Positions 546-57,710 of a stretch of DNA of 64,000 nt are shown piece by piece. Position 1 is the stretch's first letter. Each line of letters opens with the position of its first letter. Position numbers and translations under genes: made by a program. The DNA is from Owenia fusiformis (lineage: Eukaryota > Annelida > Polychaeta > Sabellida > Oweniidae): contig CAIIXF020000009.1 in the NCBI GenBank assembly GCA_903813345.2, forward strand, positions 15,279,759 to 15,343,758, written 5' to 3'. The notes under the pieces were generated by a model. It saw nothing but the letters and a program-made list of their open reading frames with translations, was not told the origin of the DNA and made no database searches.

Positions 546-600
546 ACTCATTTTCAGGATAACCATTTGACGGGATCACCACTTGGTGGGGACATTTTGT

Positions 601-1386: not shown

Positions 1387-1467
1387 GATTTCCAACATAA
1401 GCTACGGGAAACATTTAAAGGCCAACCTGATGAATTCATGACAACAAATCTCACAACTAAACCCAAG
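1387..1467 (+). CDS. SNX8: SNX8 linker exon, copy A
   Basis: The exon is 81 bases, phase 0 at both ends, preceded by TTGTAG and followed by GTAGAG. It encodes 27 residues starting DFQHKLRETFKG with DEFMT in the middle. It corresponds to the single 27-residue segment between the PX and BAR domains in vertebrate SNX8. Confidence 0.85.
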
Positions 1468-4400
1468 GTAGAGAGGGACATCCAAGTTTGGATTTATTTG
1501 GGGTGTGGATTGATGTGTGCTTTCTCTCTATCAACTTGAACTGTTGGCTTTCATAATCATATGTCTTTTTTAACAATTATTTAAGATGCCATAGCACTAA
1601 GGAAATGACAAAACAGAAAGTTACAAAACCATGCTGCATTTGTGGACATTTTTTGAACAAAGATAATAGAGTTGTGTTTTGACCTTCTTGTTTTGTCATT
1701 TCCTGTTAAGTACCATGGCACCTTAATAATTAAGGTGAAACTTGGAGTAATATTGAAGCATGAGAAAGGACATGGTAATTGTACCATGCATACGATCTCA
1801 TACTTGATGTTTATTAATTTCAACAATATTGGCCCATGCACCTTGTGTTTTGGCACATGTTTACTGGTGAATGTTCAATATATTTCCATGCATGTTGGTA
1901 TTTTTATAACTAGGCTCTAGTCCATTGAGTTGTTTTACTATCTCTTGTTTCCAAGTTTCATAATAATACTATCTTCCGCTATGTGGTATTTGTAATGTAA
2001 TATCAGTTTAATATATGCAACTGAGTTTGTCTGCATATATAGGTGTGATATTGATTATGAAATAACATAGAGCTGGAGACGCAATAAGTGAATGAATCGG
2101 TTTACTCTAATTAACATCACATAATTTAATAATTGATATCTCTCTACATATTTATCAAGGACCAGGCTTGCTGTGATAATACTAATAATGTAATATTTGT
2201 TAACTCAAGTATTATACAGCAACATTTTAATGTTAGTGTCTAATTGAAAGCCCATGTTGGTATCTAATTTGAAGGGTGTTCAATAATAATGCTTTTTAGT
2301 ACAACTATTTCTTATATACCAATGTTTTGATTATTTGGTCAATCCATTAGTCCTGAGATTTTTGGTCTTATATACAAGATACATCATACTCTCCTAATCT
2401 TATGAAGGCATAGGTACTAGGGACCAACAATTGGATGTCTTACTTCAAATTGTAAAATCCAATGTGTGCACTACTTCAATCAGTATATAGATGGCGTACA
2501 TGTTACTATTACAAAACCATCAATCTCCGGATATTAAACTTATTTCATTCTACCTGAACTGACAAAAGTACTTAAAAGTGTGATGTATTTGAGTCTCATC
2601 TGTATAAAACTTTTTCTCATATATGTATAACTGTATAACTGTCCACTCTTCCTATTCTATATTATGAATTATAAGAAAGGGACAATTGTTTAAATTATTT
2701 GATGTTAATTAGAATGATCATAATTTCCTTAATATGTTTTAATTCACTTGAATGGTGTGAAATGGATGATGAGGCAGTTGTTTATGCTGGTAGCTTCATC
2801 AACCATTTTAGATTGTCTTTTTACTTTTACTTATTTAGGAGTTGGAGTTTACAATTAACATCTATTTTCTCTGTCTTTTCCTGGCACTTAGAATGAACAA
2901 CTCTGAAAATTCTTCACTGTATTCATACTTGGAGAGTATAATGTGAAGAAGTTTGTGTATGATTGATGTGTCATATGTTGGGCTCATAAAAACCTTTCCT
3001 TATTTTCTTCATACTATTAGGACTTTCAACATAAACTTAAGGATCATTTTCGGGGAATGATGGATGAATTTATGACGTGTAATGTTGGAGATAATGCAAA
3101 GGTATATTGTATGTACACTTTAGTACAACGAAAGTCAGGGATTTTTCATATGAGCTGGTCTTTATCGTGAATTCCATGAACCATGGCTTTTTAGTTGCAC
3201 ATGTCTGTTTCTCATTATTTATCACAACTGCCATTCTAGGAGATGCTCCAGGATGACTTGTGTCTACAGTAGTACCTGTATATCAGAACACCTCTATTCG
3301 ATCCAATATCAATATGACTCCTTTTTATCCCAATTTTGTTAGTTTCCATTGCTCATTTATTAAGACGCCGTAAAATATGAATACCTGTTATGTGAACACT
3401 CATGGCTGGTCCCAGAGGCATTCAGACAAGACAGGTTTTACTGTAGTTGCTTTTACTGAGCAGCTGAATTCCAGCAGCACCAGTAGGATTCCTGGGTAGT
3501 ATGTAAATATGTAGTCTGTAACATATTAGGATATATTACAGCCTCAATTAAGCATTCAATTCATCATATTAAAACATATTTATTCTGGTACTATTAGTCT
3601 ACAAGCCATAGATTTCCATATTTTGATGAATATTAAAATGAGAACAAATTTGGTCTATAATATAAAGTAATATGTAAGACTATGTTGTTTACACAAAGAA
3701 CAACTAGGTGTTCTGTTTGCTTGGCTTATTATATGTGAGACATGGTGAGCAATTATCATCCATTTTGTACAACTGTGGCTGCTTATGGAACACTGCCAAT
3801 GTGTGTGTGGGGGGGTCTATTTGCAACATGGGGATCAATTTCTGGTATTGTGGTAACCAAGAATCATTTAAAAGGGCTCTTTCTCTGTCCCCAAATACCA
3901 AAATATTATAAAAGCCTTTAATTTGCAATCTTTGATATAAACCTTCATTTCTGAAAATATTGAAGTTTGAAAAAATTGCTGGCCTAGAGAAAATGGCATG
4001 TCAAATGAAATCTCTTAAAAGTAATACATTGTAGCTTTAATATATTTTAAATTTAGGTATTGAACATTTGAATGGTTTTCTTGAAATATAGGAAAGTCCG
4101 AAATGGCTACCCGAATATAGGAATATGTGGAAGTGTAATCAATTATGCACTTTTTAGAAAATAGATAGAGTATGGCAAGAAATGATATGATCTCAAAATT
4201 TTCTAAAACAGACACTATTTGTGTTAAGGTTACTTGCTAGATTTGGTACTACCTTTAAGAGAAACAAAGTCTATTGTAGGTTGTTCTGGAGTTTTAATTG
4301 CACCCTAGGGCTGTAGTTCCAGGCTGTAGTTCCATTTTAAGATGGCCATTTTGGATTTTCCAGTCAAATGGTTCGATGTATTGATTTTAAATTTTCAAGG

Positions 4401-7400
4401 GTGCTTCTTGATGTATAAATTGATAACTGGTTAGATAGTTGGCTTGCTGGGTACAACATTTTGGATCAGAAAAATGAGTCCCTTTAAGTGATTATAATTT
4501 AAAAAATGATATTTGAACTCTGGTTGCATAAGCTTTAATTGTAGAGCAAAAAGACCTTGATTCCCCCCCCTCGAATATAAAAATATAAGCTTGAAACATA
4601 ATTGCTTGAACACATATATGAGCTGAGTATAACCAGGGATCTGGGATTTCTAAACTCAATGTGCTTTTACAATCACACTAGGATATGCAGCACAAATTGA
4701 GAGATTCATTTAGAGGGTACCCTGATGAATTTGTCACCACAGATCATGGCCGCAGTGCCAAGGTAGGCCAAGTGAACCATAGTTATCTTGCCCTGCTTTA
4801 ATCCTAGTCCAGCTTTTTACACCTTTCATTTATTTTTTTAATTGAAATTCCAGTTTGATGAATGCATTTTTGTATTTTATTCTCTAATACTAACAGATTC
4901 ATCCTTGAATCATACTATTAATTGAGACTAAGTATAAAGGTTATGGATCATAGGATTCCATAAACAAAATATTCTTCATTTGTGTGGCAATCCACATTGC
5001 ATTGTATATATTGGCAACAGATTTTTAGTATAACAACAAAAACACATCTTTAAGTAATTCAGTAGTTGTGTACTTTCTGTCTGCAAGATATAAATATCTT
5101 GCCTTAAGTCACCTCTTCTAATATTCTCAACATTCAGATTAGTAGAACAATTCTCCAAAAATTTTAAAGCTAGGCAAGAATAAACTATGTTTACATTATA
5201 CGAGATGTTTTATGTTGTAGGACATGGTGCCAGTTGACACCCAGTTACAATTTGGCAACAGCAAACAACACTTACGTATTCTCTTTGATAGCATCACCAA
5301 GTTAAAGGAAGTTGCAGAGAGAATGGTGCTCTATACACAGGGATTTGCCTCAGATATGCTCAAGTTTGGCAAAGAATTAAGGTTTGTTAAAGGTTTACGT
5401 TTTCAGTTGTTTAACTGCAAACAAGAAATGTTAAATCTACATTTTCTCAGATGGAAAGACAGTAAGAATATATGGGACTAAAATGAGCATGAAATGGAAT
5501 GATATGATTCTTAAGATTGAATCTCTAATTAAGTTCTCTAATACCCCTTTTGTTTTTCAGTATTCTTGCTGCAGATCAAACCCCGATATCAATGTGGGCC
5601 ACTGGTAACAATACCACATGGTACCACCTAAAGAAAGGTTTCAAAGTACTCTCCATAGAATATGCAACATTGAGTGACAAAAGCTCTACCCAGTCAAAGA
5701 GGGAAGATGACGCTGTTGTAGAGAGGTTAAACCTATTTCTGGATATGCTGTCATCATACAGGGTAAATCAAAGAATTTCTTTATAGCCTTATTTATTAAG
5801 CACTTTTTGATGAAATAATATTCTGTCAAAGGATTATAGTTTACTAGATGTAAAAATGATTAAATTTGGAGGAAATGTAGAATGTCACTCCACTCTTTTG
5901 TGACTTTGAAGTCATGTCTGCACTTCGCAGTTCAAAATCAATATATATCTATATTAATTTGACACCACCTTCTTATTTTCGTCACTGACATTTTATTGTT
6001 TCTCAAAACTAATTCTCTCAAAATCAGCAAATTAGGGTGATGAGCAGGGGAATACTTTAGGGAATTTCAGTCGTAAAAACATAACGGGTAACTTACACTT
6101 CCTCCAAGTGAAATTATTTTTCTTAATTAAATTCTAAACTGTACATTTTTTAAACAGTGTATTTCAGTAGGATTTACTCATTTAAAAACTAAAACCAAAC
6201 CCCTTAAACGCTTAGCCCTTCAAACCATGAATATATTACTGTTTCACTTATATTCTGTAAAATATTTCCTTTGAACCACTTGGTGATGTTGTTTGATGAT
6301 CATCATTTCAGGAATTGTGTGATAGGCATGAAAAAGGAGTTTTAAATGACCATCAGCGAGCTATAGCAAAAATGGGTCAATATAAAAAGAAAAAGATGTC
6401 TGCTACAATACAGGGTGCTCAGGAGTCACATACCGTTGAACAGTTGGAGGGACGTATATTAGAGGTAAATATACAGGGCAACTCAAAATGTCAAGAAGGC
6501 ATTGATTATTTTGACACACATGATTTATCTGCATTGGATCTCCGTAATAAATGATGTGAAGTATTCTCTATGATCAGTAAATTGACTCTTTAAGCTCGGT
6601 GTCAAAACAATGTCTTAGTTTAATGTGTTTTTGTAATGCTGTGCAGTGCATGTATTTCAGCAATACAGAGTTTATAAATCTTCCATCTTTCCTTTAAAAA
6701 TCTGCTGCATTTTGTATTTACATTCATTGATTGTATATTTCTTTGCAGCAAGAAAGTCAAATAATGAATATGGAGAACCGGAACTATTTTTCCCTGCATT
6801 GTCTTCAAATGGAGACCCAGTTAATCCATGCCAACCTGGACTTATTGTTTACTGCCATAGAAAGCATGGTGTTTGAGGAGGCCAAAGGACACCTAGAGGT
6901 ACGAAACATAGCACAATGTGGAATTTTATAGTGAATCTGCATTAGGTAAAAAGTATTGTGAATATACATGCAATTAACAGCTGGATGTTGCATCCTGTTG
7001 AAATCCTGATACAGATAAACAAAATCTACATAGATAAATATTAATTTAAACATCATGACCTTTTTCGGCCTTCACTATAATATTCTACAGTCACAGTGTT
7101 CAGGGAATCCTGATGTGGTATGGTTCTTAAGCTCATAGTCAGTGGTCACCAACAATGACATTGTACTAAACTATGGACTTGTCAAGTCACCTCTAATAAG
7201 ATGAGAAATTTATTAGATTTTTATGTCACCACCACAAGTGGTGATATATTGTTATAATCTTCGACTTTTTTGTGGCGGCAGTTGGACTTTGGTGGTTGGT
7301 GTTTAGTGGTTGGTGTTCAGTGTCTAACAAATAGCAGGTGGTGACATTTTGCATGTTAATGCTTTGTTTTCTGTGAGATCAGGTTAGAATGGTATGAAGA

Positions 7401-7578
7401 CAAATATGAGTATGCAATTTTTTTAATGTTTTTCCAGTTAAGCCAAACTTGGGAACAAATTAAACCTATAGTGTGCCAGCTTTTGCCTGCTGATGCTAGG
7501 AACAGCAATAATAATACTTCGCCCAGAATGTCACCTCTCGCCTCTCCCACATTGGAGAAACCTGGAATAACAATATAA
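1387..7578 (+). CDS. SNX8: Sorting nexin 8 (SNX8), 3' part: PX-BAR linker and BAR domain
   Basis: Exons: 1387-1467, 3021-3101 and 4682-4762 (three homologous 81-base exons), 5221-5381, 5561-5762, 6312-6464, 6749-6898 and 7438-7578 (stop TAA). All are bounded by AG and GT, and the phases agree (0,0,0,2,0,0,0). The translated order follows SNX8: linker, then FGKEL, WYHLKKGFKVLSIEYATL, ERLNLFLDML, ELCDRHEKGVL, VEQLEGRI, NYFSLHCLQMETQLIH. SNX8 is an endosomal PX-BAR protein acting in endosome-to-Golgi transport. The BAR part dimerises and binds curved membrane. The PX domain and start lie left of the window. The C-terminal tail is Ser/Pro/Asn-rich. The tandem linker exons are unusual and are described under findings. 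The remaining introns hold only AT-rich sequence and the small elements listed here. Confidence 0.93.
1581..1726. mobile_element. Short TTAA-flanked inverted-repeat element (piggyBac-type MITE)
   Basis: The termini are TTAAGATGCCATAG and CATGGCACCTTAA. The inner inverted repeat GGAAATGACAAAAC/GTTTTGTCATTTCC is shared with the 765-bp hairpin element at 54393-55157. The TTAA at each end fits the target duplication of the piggyBac superfamily. It lies in the SNX8 intron between linker copies A and B. Confidence 0.7.
3021..3101 (+). CDS. SNX8: SNX8 linker exon, copy B
   Basis: The exon is 81 bases, phase 0 at both ends, with an acceptor ATTAG and a donor GTATAT. It encodes 27 residues starting DFQHKLKDHFRG with DEFMT. 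I count 15 of 27 residues identical to copy A and 16 of 27 to copy C. No stop or frame damage is present. Confidence 0.85.
4682..4762 (+). CDS. SNX8: SNX8 linker exon, copy C
   Basis: The exon is 81 bases, phase 0 at both ends, with an acceptor ACTAG and a donor GTAGGC. It encodes 27 residues starting DMQHKLRDSFRG with DEFVT. It is intact and is followed by the common BAR exon at 5221. Confidence 0.85.
7220..7356 (-). mobile_element. Minimal hairpin-ended element, TATGTCACCACC subfamily
   Basis: Read on the - strand, the element opens with AACATGCAAAATGTCACCACC and closes with a hairpin: TATGTCACCACCAC, a loop, then GTGGTGATATA (7222-7248). Between them lie only about 80 bases of G/T-rich near-tandem sequence (GGTGGTTGGTG). 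It has the same ends as 14635-16102 and 26757-26890 but lacks the central satellite array. It lies in the last SNX8 intron. Confidence 0.7.
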
Positions 7579-13446: not shown

Positions 13447-16400
13447 CTATTTCTTAGTGATAATATGGTTTACAGTTACGAAAGAAATACAACTTAATGC
13501 CCAAATGAGTGTAAAACCTACCCAAAATACACTGGCAAAAGGTGATTTCTGAGTGTTTTTTACCTCACTGCCCAGTGCCAAGTTCATATCTCTACGACTA
13601 TAATAGACTAAAGCTGCTGGGACTATGTACTGTATTGCAGAGCCAGCATATGAGCCTGTTATCCCCACCAAAAATTCAACATCTTCTGTGATTAATGCAA
13701 CAATGACAGGCGGAAGAAGTGTGACAATTGGGAAAACTAACCTATCTATACAAAAATACCTTGACTTTCTTCCATCCCTGTAAAAAATACTTTTGATATT
13801 TTCTCTCAGTGTAATCCCAATGATTGGGAAATTCGTACTTAATGTAAAAACTGGAAATAAAGCAAGGAAATACTGTATAAACTTCACACTGATGACTGAA
13901 TCAGTGTTAAAACTCAGTGTGTACAAATCCTTTATATTGCTAAACGCAAAAATTCCAGTGTATGACAGGAGAAGGTAAAATCCTAGAATGAGTATATAGT
14001 CAGCACTAAAGAGAACTTTCAGCTTTGACTTGTTCCTGATAGGTGTCACTAGTGAAGGCAAAGAGTGATGGCACATGAACGAGTAGACACAAACTCCAAA
14101 GAAGTTTGGCACACCAGTAAAATTAGCAACAGGGGGATGGCCCTGACCTTGACCTTTAATCAGGCGTATTGCTGCTATTATGATCATCATCAGGAATGCT
14201 GAAAATAAATAAATATACAGATTGACACAAAATACGAAACCCATGAGTAATTTCGTTTGACAAAGATGATTTAACATGAGTATATGAACATGAAAATTAA
14301 TTCATCAAAACTTCCAAATGCACGTGGCTTGAAAATTAACTGATACCTTTTATTTTGGCATAATTCTCTTTAAATAAATGACTGCATGAAATAAATGCCC
14401 AGTGGGCTTATTACCTGCCCATCTCATTATAGTTGTAAATATTTGAAGGTATTTGGTCTTCTGCACATTGAAAAACATGAATGGTCCCAGGAGGAATGTG
14501 AATGCTGCCTGAAAATAAAATGCCATTGTGTTTTTTACCGTTTTCAATGGTTTGATTTCGCTTCTTTAAAAAGAAATGTAATCTTAGTTCATTCATTAGG
14601 CTCTGTTAGACTACAAAGTGTGAAACAAGGCATTAACATGACAAAATGTCACCACCTAAAACAATTTGGTCAATTTAAAGCAAGTTGAAAAAATACCTCT
14701 TTGACTTTTTTAGACATTGAGAAGGTCATTGAAGGTCAAATATCAAATGTAAAGTCAGATTTGAACTTCTGAGAACATGTAGATGATTTTGAAAAAAAAA
14801 TTAAGTAAATTTGAAGCAAGTTGAAAAAAGACCTTTTTGACCTTGAAAAGGTCATTGAAGGTCAAAAGTCAAATTTAAAGTCAGATTTGAACTTCTGAGA
14901 ACTTGTAAAGTCAAATTTGAACTTCTGAAAAGATGTAGATGATTTTGAAAAAAAAATTTGGTCAATTTGAAGCAAGTTGAAAAAAGACCTTTTTGACCTT
15001 TTTTTGACCTTGAGAAGGTCATTAAAGGTCAAATGTCAAATCTAAAGTCAGATTTGAATTTCTGAGAACATGTAGATGATTTTGAAAAAAAATTTAGTCA
15101 ATTTGAAGCAAGTTGAAAAAAGACCTTTTTGACCTTTTTGACCTTGAGAAGGTCATTGAAGGTCAAATGTCAAATCTAAAGTCATATTTGAATTTCTGAG
15201 AACATGTAGATGATTTTGAAAAAAAAATTTAGTCAATTTGAAGCAAGATGAAAAAATACCTTTTTGACCTTTTTTGACATTGAGAAGGTCATTGAAGGTC
15301 AAATGTCAAATCTAAAGTCATATTTGAATTTCTGAGAACATGTAGATGATCTTGAAAAAAAAAATTAGTCAATTTGAAGCAAGTTGAAAAAAGACCTTTT
15401 TGACCTTTTTTGACTTTGAGAAGGTCATTGAAGGTCAAATGTCAAATCTTAAGTCAAATCTAAAGTCAGATTTGAATTTCTGAGAACACGTAGATGATTT
15501 TGAAAATTTTTTTTAGTCAATTTGAAGCAAGTTGAAAACAGACCTTTTTGACCTTTTTTGACCTTGAGAAGGTCATTGAAGGTCTAATGTCAAATCTTAA
15601 GTCAGATTTGAATTTCTGAGAACACGTAGATGATTTTGAAAAAAAAATTTAGTCAATTTGAAGCAAGTTGAAAACAGACCTTTTTGACCTTTTTTGACCT
15701 TGAGAAGGTCATTGAAGGTCAAATGTCAAATCTAAAGTCAGATTTGAAGGTCAAATGTCAAATCTAAAGTCAGATTTGAATTTCTGAGAACATGTAGATG
15801 ATTTTGAAAAAAAATTTAGTTAATGTGAAGCAAGTTGAAAAAAGACCTTTTTGACCTTGAGAAGGTCAAATGTCAAATCTAAAGTCAGATTTGAACTTCT
15901 GAGAACATGTAGATGATTTAGAAAAAAATTGAAGTCAATCTAAACAGTATTTGTTAAGTTATAGGAAGTTGTAAGAAATTGTTACAGACGCCGGACGCCA
16001 ACCACCGGACGCCAACCGCCGGACGCCAACCGCCGGACGCCAACCGCCGTCGCAAAAAAACGGAGACCATAACAATATGTCACCACTTTTGGTGGTGACA
16101 TAACAATGGCAATTTATAGAATTAGCTATAGATAACCACAATTAAAGCAATGTTAATAGCCTCTTTGATACCAAGTCATAAGATCTCATCACTTTTCTTG
16201 ATTCCTCAGAACGAAAAGCATCACAAGAGCAAAAAATATTTCTTAACGCTGATAGGCAATAGTTAGACTGGCTTTTAACACTATTCCTGAAACAAGGGTC
16301 GAAGAGAATTCTTTTTTTCTTAGAAGGTAGGCTATGTACCCTAACTCGACAGATCAATGGAGAATTCTCAATTTTAGTAGAGAACTTTGGATGGAGCATC

Positions 16401-55966: not shown

Positions 55967-56520
55967 TAGTGTTGTCACGATTAATCGATACATCGCGATA
56001 TACATCGCCAAAGCTGGTTCTGGCAATGCATCAATGTCTGAAACAAAACATCGATGTTTTTAAAAAATTTAATTTGCTAAAAATCGCCCTTTCTTATCTT
56101 ATTTTGACGCAAATTGCTTACCTTTTCCATTCATTTTCAAATGGTTTCTGATATTCTTTCGCTTTAAAACTGTTTTAGCTAGTCGAAATGAACCATTAAT
56201 CTAAAAAATTACTTTACTTTCATTTCACCGTTACTATGTTCCCGGATGTACCAGCGTACTCTTATTAATTTGTTCTGTTTATCGGTGCATATACATGTCC
56301 ACTCAGCTGTACTACTCAGTTTTAATTTATTCAAATTAATACTACTAACAGCTGGAATCCGATAATAAGGGTTATTTTATTGTTTAGTGCATTAGCGTTC
56401 GGTATTTCAGTGCACTTTTCTCGAACTTTTTCTCGATGTACATCGCGATGTGCATCGATGTTTACTACTGAAAATTGCTGATGCATCGATATACGATTAT
56501 GGCACATTGCGACAACACTA
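55967..56520. mobile_element. hAT-like MITE, 554 bp, 8-bp duplication CCTCACTC
   Basis: Ends TAGTGTTGTC and GACAACACTA fit the YAGNG hAT terminus. CCTCACTC flanks both sides (55959-55966 and 56521-56528). Subterminal ATCGATAC/ATCGCGAT palindromes recur near both ends. A truncated relative is at 601-778. 56529-57710 contains the repeated palindrome at 56751 and a C13 run near 57567, otherwise no feature. Confidence 0.85.
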
Positions 56521-57710
56521 CCTCACTCTCCTAGCAGGGTTAGGAATTTGAATTTTTCATTTTATTCTCCAAAACATGCCAATGAACTAAAGTCAGCACT
56601 ATCAATGGTATGATATACTCTGCCTTTCTTAGTAAGAGCTAAGATTAGATCTAAGATTCCCTATATTTTTAGAATATAGATCCATTGATAGTGTTGACTG
56701 TGCAATGAACCACTGAAGACAGGTTACTGAAAAAAACGGACTATCTCCCATACCGACAATTGTCGGTACTGGAGACTGCCTGAGTGAGTATTTGCTTGGG
56801 TACTGACAATTATCGTCACTTTATCGTCTCCTAGTTGGGCCGACATCCGCTTCTTGGTGCGTTTTTTGTGCCTAGAGATACTTTTTACTTCTTTTTCGGA
56901 CCCAGTTTTTAAATTGTTCTTTTATTTCTTTTTATATCAGTAGCAGCTCAATAAATATTTTGAGCCATCGACGCTATTACAATGATCTGGCTTACCCTCA
57001 AAGGCTGGCTGTCTTACTAATTCATGTTTTCCTGATGTTTTTGCAATTTACAACCACAATCCATTCTGTTTACGAAACGATTTGTCTCTAATAAAACTCC
57101 GCTGAACTGTGATAAGAAATAAAACCTGTTTCGAAAAATATTGAGTGCAACATTGCTTGAGATTATTTTTTATAGTTGGTTGTTTGTCAATTAGGGTTAT
57201 TTCCTGCTAATTGATGATTTGCGATCACCGGATGGATTCTATCTTGTAGTGACGTCACAATTAGGCCATTCAGCATTATATGTTTGATTTTGAGAGATTA
57301 TCTTCTATATTTCATCATGTCTAATATCTTTTCTATATGCATCACACCAATAAGGTGAAATACATGACAACAGTATCCATAAACAAAATTCCTGAATTCT
57401 GATCGCAAAAGGTCAATTAACCAGTCACGATTGCCACTTGTTGTTATTTGAAAATAAAACCTATGAGAGGTTAATTATAAATATAAAGTTACAAACTTTT
57501 TTGTCATGAGTTATTGTTGCCTGTTGATTGGTGATTATAGGGTCGGGTCGGGTCGTGAGACTGCTCCCCCCCCCCCCCATAACCTGAGACTATCATAGTC
57601 TCAGCCATAACCAAGATCCGAAAAAGAAAAGAGCTTTCAAATTGACTTGTAAAACTTGAACTGTAACTCAGTTTAAGGTGTAATTATAGTAAATAGATGC
57701 AAGAGGACTG

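Follow-up and report, generated by a model that had tools for sequence, protein, structure and literature searches.

Tandemly duplicated exons that are spliced in a mutually exclusive manner are well known, and in a number of genes the choice among them is controlled by competing RNA structures (PMC9741552, PMC9013439, PMC6071210, PMC5740500). Such exons tend to resemble one another in length and sequence, and tandem duplication is considered their likely origin (PMC6071210), and tandem duplicated exon substitutions are described as mostly ancient (PMC9741552). Clusters are on record for insect Dscam, Mhc, 14-3-3zeta and MRP1 (PMC6071210), for myosin genes (PMC3912159), and for a human set (PMC5740500). 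Described here is a comparable cluster in the annelid Owenia fusiformis, located in a 64,000-nucleotide (nt) stretch of contig CAIIXF020000009.1 (assembly GCA_903813345.2, positions 15,279,759 to 15,343,758; hereafter, the window). In this stretch the gene for the membrane-bending sorting nexin SNX8 carries three homologous exons, copies A, B, and C, between the exons for its PX domain and those for its BAR domain, the two parts of the protein that bind membranes.

Like the clusters above (PMC6071210, PMC5740500), the SNX8 exons are adjacent and homologous, equal in length and phase, old, conserved at the protein level, and matched to one structural slot. Unlike them, they belong to an SNX-BAR gene, the reading frame does not enforce exclusion, and it is from sequence that we infer both the one-at-a-time use of the copies and its functional effect. 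The arrangement is of a known kind, and no earlier report of its occurrence in SNX8 was found. The main texts of PMC9741552, PMC9013439, and PMC5740500, which deal mostly with human genes, make no mention of SNX, and those of the first and last make none of "sorting nexin" either. Likewise, no SNX8 exon cluster appeared among the matches listed for SNX8 or sorting nexin, BAR-domain, and annelid or mollusc alternative exons.

In the SNX8 relative Mvp1 of yeast, the loop that follows PX helix 5 is part of a yoke and contacts the opposing BAR dimer in an autoinhibited tetramer, and the loop connecting PX and BAR is not well assignable by cryo-electron microscopy (PMC7083883). Judging from its position, the segment encoded by copies A, B, and C may overlap this yoke contact.

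Three homologous exons in a complete SNX8 gene

The gene is already under way where the window begins, and its 5′ exons were supplied by two upstream stretches of 10 kb (coordinates prefixed L005 in Table 1 are positions within an upstream DNA stretch). The spliced coding sequence runs from its ATG through to a stop codon: a single copy makes the protein 532 residues long, two make it 559, and three 586, against 505 if no copy is included. None of the eight possible exon combinations breaks the frame, and all are open to the same stop. The third PX exon (PX3), with its end at ...FTGS, closes in phase 0 and exon D opens in phase 0, both matching the 81-nt copies. Two gene models differ by 3 nt at the 3′ end of PX2, where a gt donor was preferred to a gc donor.

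An EH domain (Pfam PF12763, 32.1 bits, above cut-off once the two EH exons are joined) occupies the N-terminus. In the spliced protein with copy B, the PX domain (PF00787) scores 63.7 bits against a cut-off of 21.6, and the SNX8/Mvp1 BAR profile, Snx8_BAR_dom (PF19566), scores 45.8 bits against a cut-off of 27. Among solved structures, 25 distinct sequences match at E ≤ 0.01, led by yeast Mvp1 (6q0x) at E 4.8e-22, with the next at 4e-10; a query running from copy B through exon G, with the PX domain left out, drew weak matches (best E 0.17). Because both the PX and Snx8_BAR_dom matches exceed their cut-offs and Mvp1 is the best structure match, the gene is, as judged from its predicted domains, a complete EH-PX-BAR member of the SNX8/Mvp1 family. 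Within that family the N-terminal EH domain is counted as a difference in the SNX8 described here; the human protein is not known to carry one. A protein probe that joined copy B to exons D and E found five matches in the genome (E ≤ 10), and since all five are exons of the SNX8 locus, no retrocopy or close SNX8 paralogue was seen with this one probe. An exon-by-exon genome search with the Pfam BAR model missed the known SNX8 locus itself, which makes it uninformative on other SNX8 genes.

Each of the three copies spans 81 nt, lacks stops and indels, and is bounded by ag before and gt after. Of 27 residues, 15 are identical between A and B, 15 between A and C, and 16 between B and C (47, 50, and 45 of 81 nt, respectively), a level reached by none of 200,000 residue shuffles per pair, the best of which gave 10. 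Residues common to all three form the pattern D.QHKL...F.G..DEF.T.......K, and variation is greatest in the tail that precedes the BAR start: NLTTKP in A, NVGDNA in B, and DHGRSA in C. Net charge also differs, being +1, -1, and 0 in that order. When the average of the three copies was scanned without gaps over both strands of 20 kb, half of it upstream of the window and half at its start (39,838 positions), the copies scored 104-106 and the next best place 19, such that no fourth or recognisably decayed copy occurs in the 20 kb scanned; the single protein probe likewise found no fourth copy elsewhere in the genome. On this evidence the yoke exon of SNX8 is, at the level of sequence, a real and well-preserved tandem triplication. 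A first-pass annotation of the window had proposed just this, namely three intact 81-nt, phase-0 exons of SNX8 with 15-16 of 27 residues identical, derived by tandem duplication and usable one, two or three at a time without breaking the frame; translation and alignment confirmed the exons themselves, the domain and structure matches bore out the gene assignment, and the duplication and the freedom of frame held up as well.

Table 1. Features of the SNX8 locus; unprefixed positions are those of the window.
Feature	Position	Strand	Remarks
SNX8 5′ exons (n = 3)	L005 3491-3512, 3630-3754, 5887-6019		upstream of window
SNX8 PX exons (PX1-PX3)	L005 6995-7188, 8622-8736, 8912-9033		~1.0-3.0 kb upstream of window start
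162-bp tandem repeat array	~-313 (L005 ~9687) to ~570-578	+	SNX8 intron before copy A
Copy A	1387..1467	+	27 residues, DFQHKLRETFKGQPDEFMTTNLTTKPK; phase 0/0; donor gtagag
Copy B	3021..3101	+	27 residues, DFQHKLKDHFRGMMDEFMTCNVGDNAK; phase 0/0; donor gtatat
Stretch complementary to 162-bp repeat	4090..4112	+	intron B-C
Copy C	4682..4762	+	27 residues, DMQHKLRDSFRGYPDEFVTTDHGRSAK; phase 0/0; donor gtaggc
Intron after copy C	4763-5220
Exon D	5221..5381	+	BAR domain start, 3′ of the three copies; phase 0 start
Exon E	5561..5762	+	BAR
Exon F	6312..6464	+	BAR
Exon G	6749..6898	+	BAR
Exon H	7438..7578	+	last coding exon, carries stop codon

One slot at the start of the BAR domain

Three residues separate the PX profile match from the 27-residue segment, the final 13-14 residues of which align with the opening columns (5/6 to 18) of Pfam's BAR profile for SNX8/Mvp1. 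The first-pass placement of the segment in the PX-BAR linker was right in that it lies between the two domains; it is not linker alone, with about half of its length falling within the BAR profile. Without any copy the protein scores 40.5 bits against Snx8_BAR_dom, as compared with 48.3 for A alone, 47.0 for B, and 45.0 for C, and the registers of the three matches agree to within one residue. Shuffling each copy three times produced nine control 27-mers that scored 39.0-43.8 bits, none of them reaching 45.0. Because each copy by itself lengthens and raises the match, each alone can, as far as the profile indicates, fill the family's slot adjoining the BAR start. Copy B aligns without gaps to Mvp1 265-291 (HMMER alignment, with residue numbers counted by hand), a fit that is not counted as support. 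Unlike yeast Mvp1, whose aligned chain has one stretch of matching length, the O. fusiformis gene has three versions of the post-PX segment. Human SNX8 contains one 27-residue segment between PX and BAR, in agreement with what the first-pass annotation held for vertebrate SNX8; a literature search for its peptides was fruitless.

The copies also appear to be old. Between pairs, 16-17 of 27 first codon positions and 19-22 second positions are identical, as compared with 10-11 third positions. The nonsynonymous distance (dN) is 0.34-0.43 by NG86, and the synonymous distance is beyond estimation, being undefined or unrealistically large by both NG86 and maximum likelihood. Between introns A-B and B-C convincing homology is lacking, the best match covering 19 nt (E 0.09); an old duplication predicts as much. 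Since synonymous change is saturated and protein identity stands at 56-59%, the pattern indicates that the duplications are old and that all three copies have long been held by purifying selection on the protein. The pairwise identities (15, 15, and 16) do not separate the order of the two duplications.

Probable alternative use of the copies

Because the copies are old, equal in length and phase, constrained, and each suited to one slot, the favoured reading, with a probability of roughly 0.73, is that an old tandem exon duplication has been kept as a set of alternative exons, most likely with one copy per mRNA. An ancestral 81-nt exon of phase 0/0, encoding the post-PX segment and the first BAR residues of SNX8, would have been duplicated twice, long ago. 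Inclusion of one copy per mRNA would then give three SNX8 proteins of 532 residues that differ only in the yoke segment. The common core, D.QHKL...F.G..DEF.T, would keep the fold, and the varied tail residues together with the changed charge could tune the setting of PX versus BAR, or the yoke contacts. Exclusion would have to act in trans or through elements that escaped detection, as double inclusion is barred neither by the frame nor by the length of the introns nor by the class of the splice sites. Specifically, joint inclusion causes no frameshift, the introns A-B and B-C are 1553 and 1580 nt long and thus not too short for neighbouring copies to be joined, and no mixture of U2 and U12 sites is evident, the three donors, each accompanied by an ag acceptor, being unlike the U12 donor consensus by eye.

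Several observations weigh against one-at-a-time use. The frame allows every combination, including the skipping of all three copies, and the splice sites are not uniformly weak. Of 10 donors scored with a generic matrix not derived from this genome (the three 5′-most exons were left out), that of A is lowest, nearly tied with PX2, and that of C is highest; the acceptor of B has pyrimidines at 16 of the 20 preceding positions. Many highly similar neighbouring human exons are not spliced in a mutually exclusive manner (PMC5740500). As the profile match begins inside the segment, the Pfam test does not distinguish a single copy from a pair. A spacing test by local alignment to yeast Mvp1 gave 244 with no copy, 253 with A, 252 with B, 250 with C, 260 with AB, 243 with AC, 242 with BC, and 237 with ABC; with 900 shuffled 27-mers averaging 250 (standard deviation 6.3, best 274), the test fails to separate single, double, or shuffled inserts and is given no weight. 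The shared fourfold-degenerate sites on which saturation rests are few (3, 4, and 4, of which 0, 2, and 0 are identical). Finally, the competing intron pairing for which the first-pass annotation had suggested a search did not stand out from the background: with self-similar sequence masked, the pairing observed for the upstream intron was equalled or exceeded by 39 of 120 control stretches and that for the downstream intron by 48 of 120, in a comparison of one species with low power.

Other modes of use are conceivable. The first-pass annotation had left the choice between mutually exclusive and combinatorial splicing, and the copies could indeed be cassettes included from zero to three at a time, altering both the length and the sequence of the PX-BAR connection. 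All eight combinations yield complete open reading frames, and introns of the above lengths pose no steric bar to joining neighbours, so that the frame does permit combinatorial use; nothing was found that favours it. Conservation of equal length and of the core motif favours substitution in one structural slot, and skipping the segment would lose family-conserved residues, as reflected in the drop to 40.5 bits, all of which makes free combination unlikely. Also permitted by frame and phases is the constitutive inclusion of all three in series, for an SNX8 of 586 residues with a yoke 54 residues longer and built of three repeats. The double insert AB does attain the top Mvp1 score, though shuffled inserts exceed it, and ABC attains the lowest in that same non-discriminating test. 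In a series only the last copy could sit at the BAR start, yet each alone fits the profile there; the other two, away from the slot, would be expected to relax and drift, and all three nonetheless keep the core motif and the exact 27-residue length, with no indels. Inclusion in series is, for these reasons, rather improbable.

One of the two outcomes that the first-pass annotation had named as its own refutation, a single copy in use beside two silent relics, is disfavoured most strongly. Unused copies of such age would have decayed, and all three have instead kept 15-16 of 27 residues, their length, their frame, and their splice dinucleotides despite saturated synonymous change; this reading is very improbable. 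One copy per mRNA is, in comparison, the use that these features suggest, and mutually exclusive splicing of the yoke exons is considered likely on the strength of the sequence.

Where exons duplicated in tandem exchange one segment of a protein, fine tuning usually matters at that spot, and the presence of three such exons where PX meets BAR suggests that this joint of SNX8 is regulated. Splicing probably allows the animal to select one of three forms of the joint. A bolder and doubtful proposal is that the mutually exclusive yoke exons might serve as a splice-controlled dial on SNX8 self-assembly, and it is entertained because the yoke loop of Mvp1, in its autoinhibited tetramer, makes contact with the BAR dimer opposite. 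If so, the version of the yoke would set the ease with which SNX8 opens onto membranes by tissue or stage, and a PX-BAR protein would be tuned at its joint through exon choice. In any event, three natural yoke variants offer a means to test yoke control of membrane binding and tubulation.

Intron pairing, repeats, and neighbouring features

Before masking, the search for docking and selector sites returned candidates that derive from repeats. The best stem joins the 162-bp repeat in the intron before A to the 4090-4112 stretch (20 pairs, -32.2 kcal/mol), and a weaker one joins the same repeat to 1560-1600 (-22.0 kcal/mol), a site that overlaps an imperfect palindrome at ~1575-1731. Pairing of an upstream-intron site with both inner introns was equalled by 0 of 25 shuffles, and by 1 of 25 if a partner in the intron after C was demanded too. 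Among real neighbourhood sequence, 12 of 150 stretch pairs reached the observed value for a site shared by both inner introns (unmasked), and 26 of 150 offered a single stem as good as that at 4090-4112. A docking site in the intron before A was rejected as evidence, its signal coming from the 162-bp repeat and being gone once all self-similar sequence was masked. The 4090-4112 stretch was rejected as a selector site, as in the predicted fold its positions 4091-4109 pair locally with 4343-4361, a direct piece of the 162-bp repeat in the same intron. For the intron after C, a candidate docking site was likewise set aside, with 10 of 25 shuffles (unmasked) and 48 of 120 masked stretches performing as well. 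Unlike Dscam-type docking and selector clusters, the SNX8 introns of this one species show pairing no better than controls when repeats are masked, in a comparison with little power to reveal a docking mechanism.

The 162-bp array has 3.5 copies inside the window (Tandem Repeats Finder), and diverged relatives in inverse orientation lie at ~48.3-49.8 kb and 19.25-19.49 kb. A dispersed repeat is common to intron B-C and the intron before A, and at 641-786 lies a 146-bp dispersed repeat copy that is 92% identical to 56383-56526. Intron A-B contains an inverted repeat at 1600-1704 with 28-nt arms (82% complementary) and with relatives at ~54.4 and 55.1 kb, plus ~18.8-18.9 kb upstream of the window; by its structure it looks like a small inverted-repeat transposon. 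A COX1 search of the genome produced no match and hence no mitochondrial contig, and three matches to Pfam Eryth_link_C, a family not known outside annelids, exceed the cut-off, one of them with an internal stop; they give a hint of annelid origin. Finally, on the reverse strand at 13447-14301, a 284-residue open frame scores 46.2 bits against Aa_trans, a family of amino acid transporters, and resembles TMEM104.

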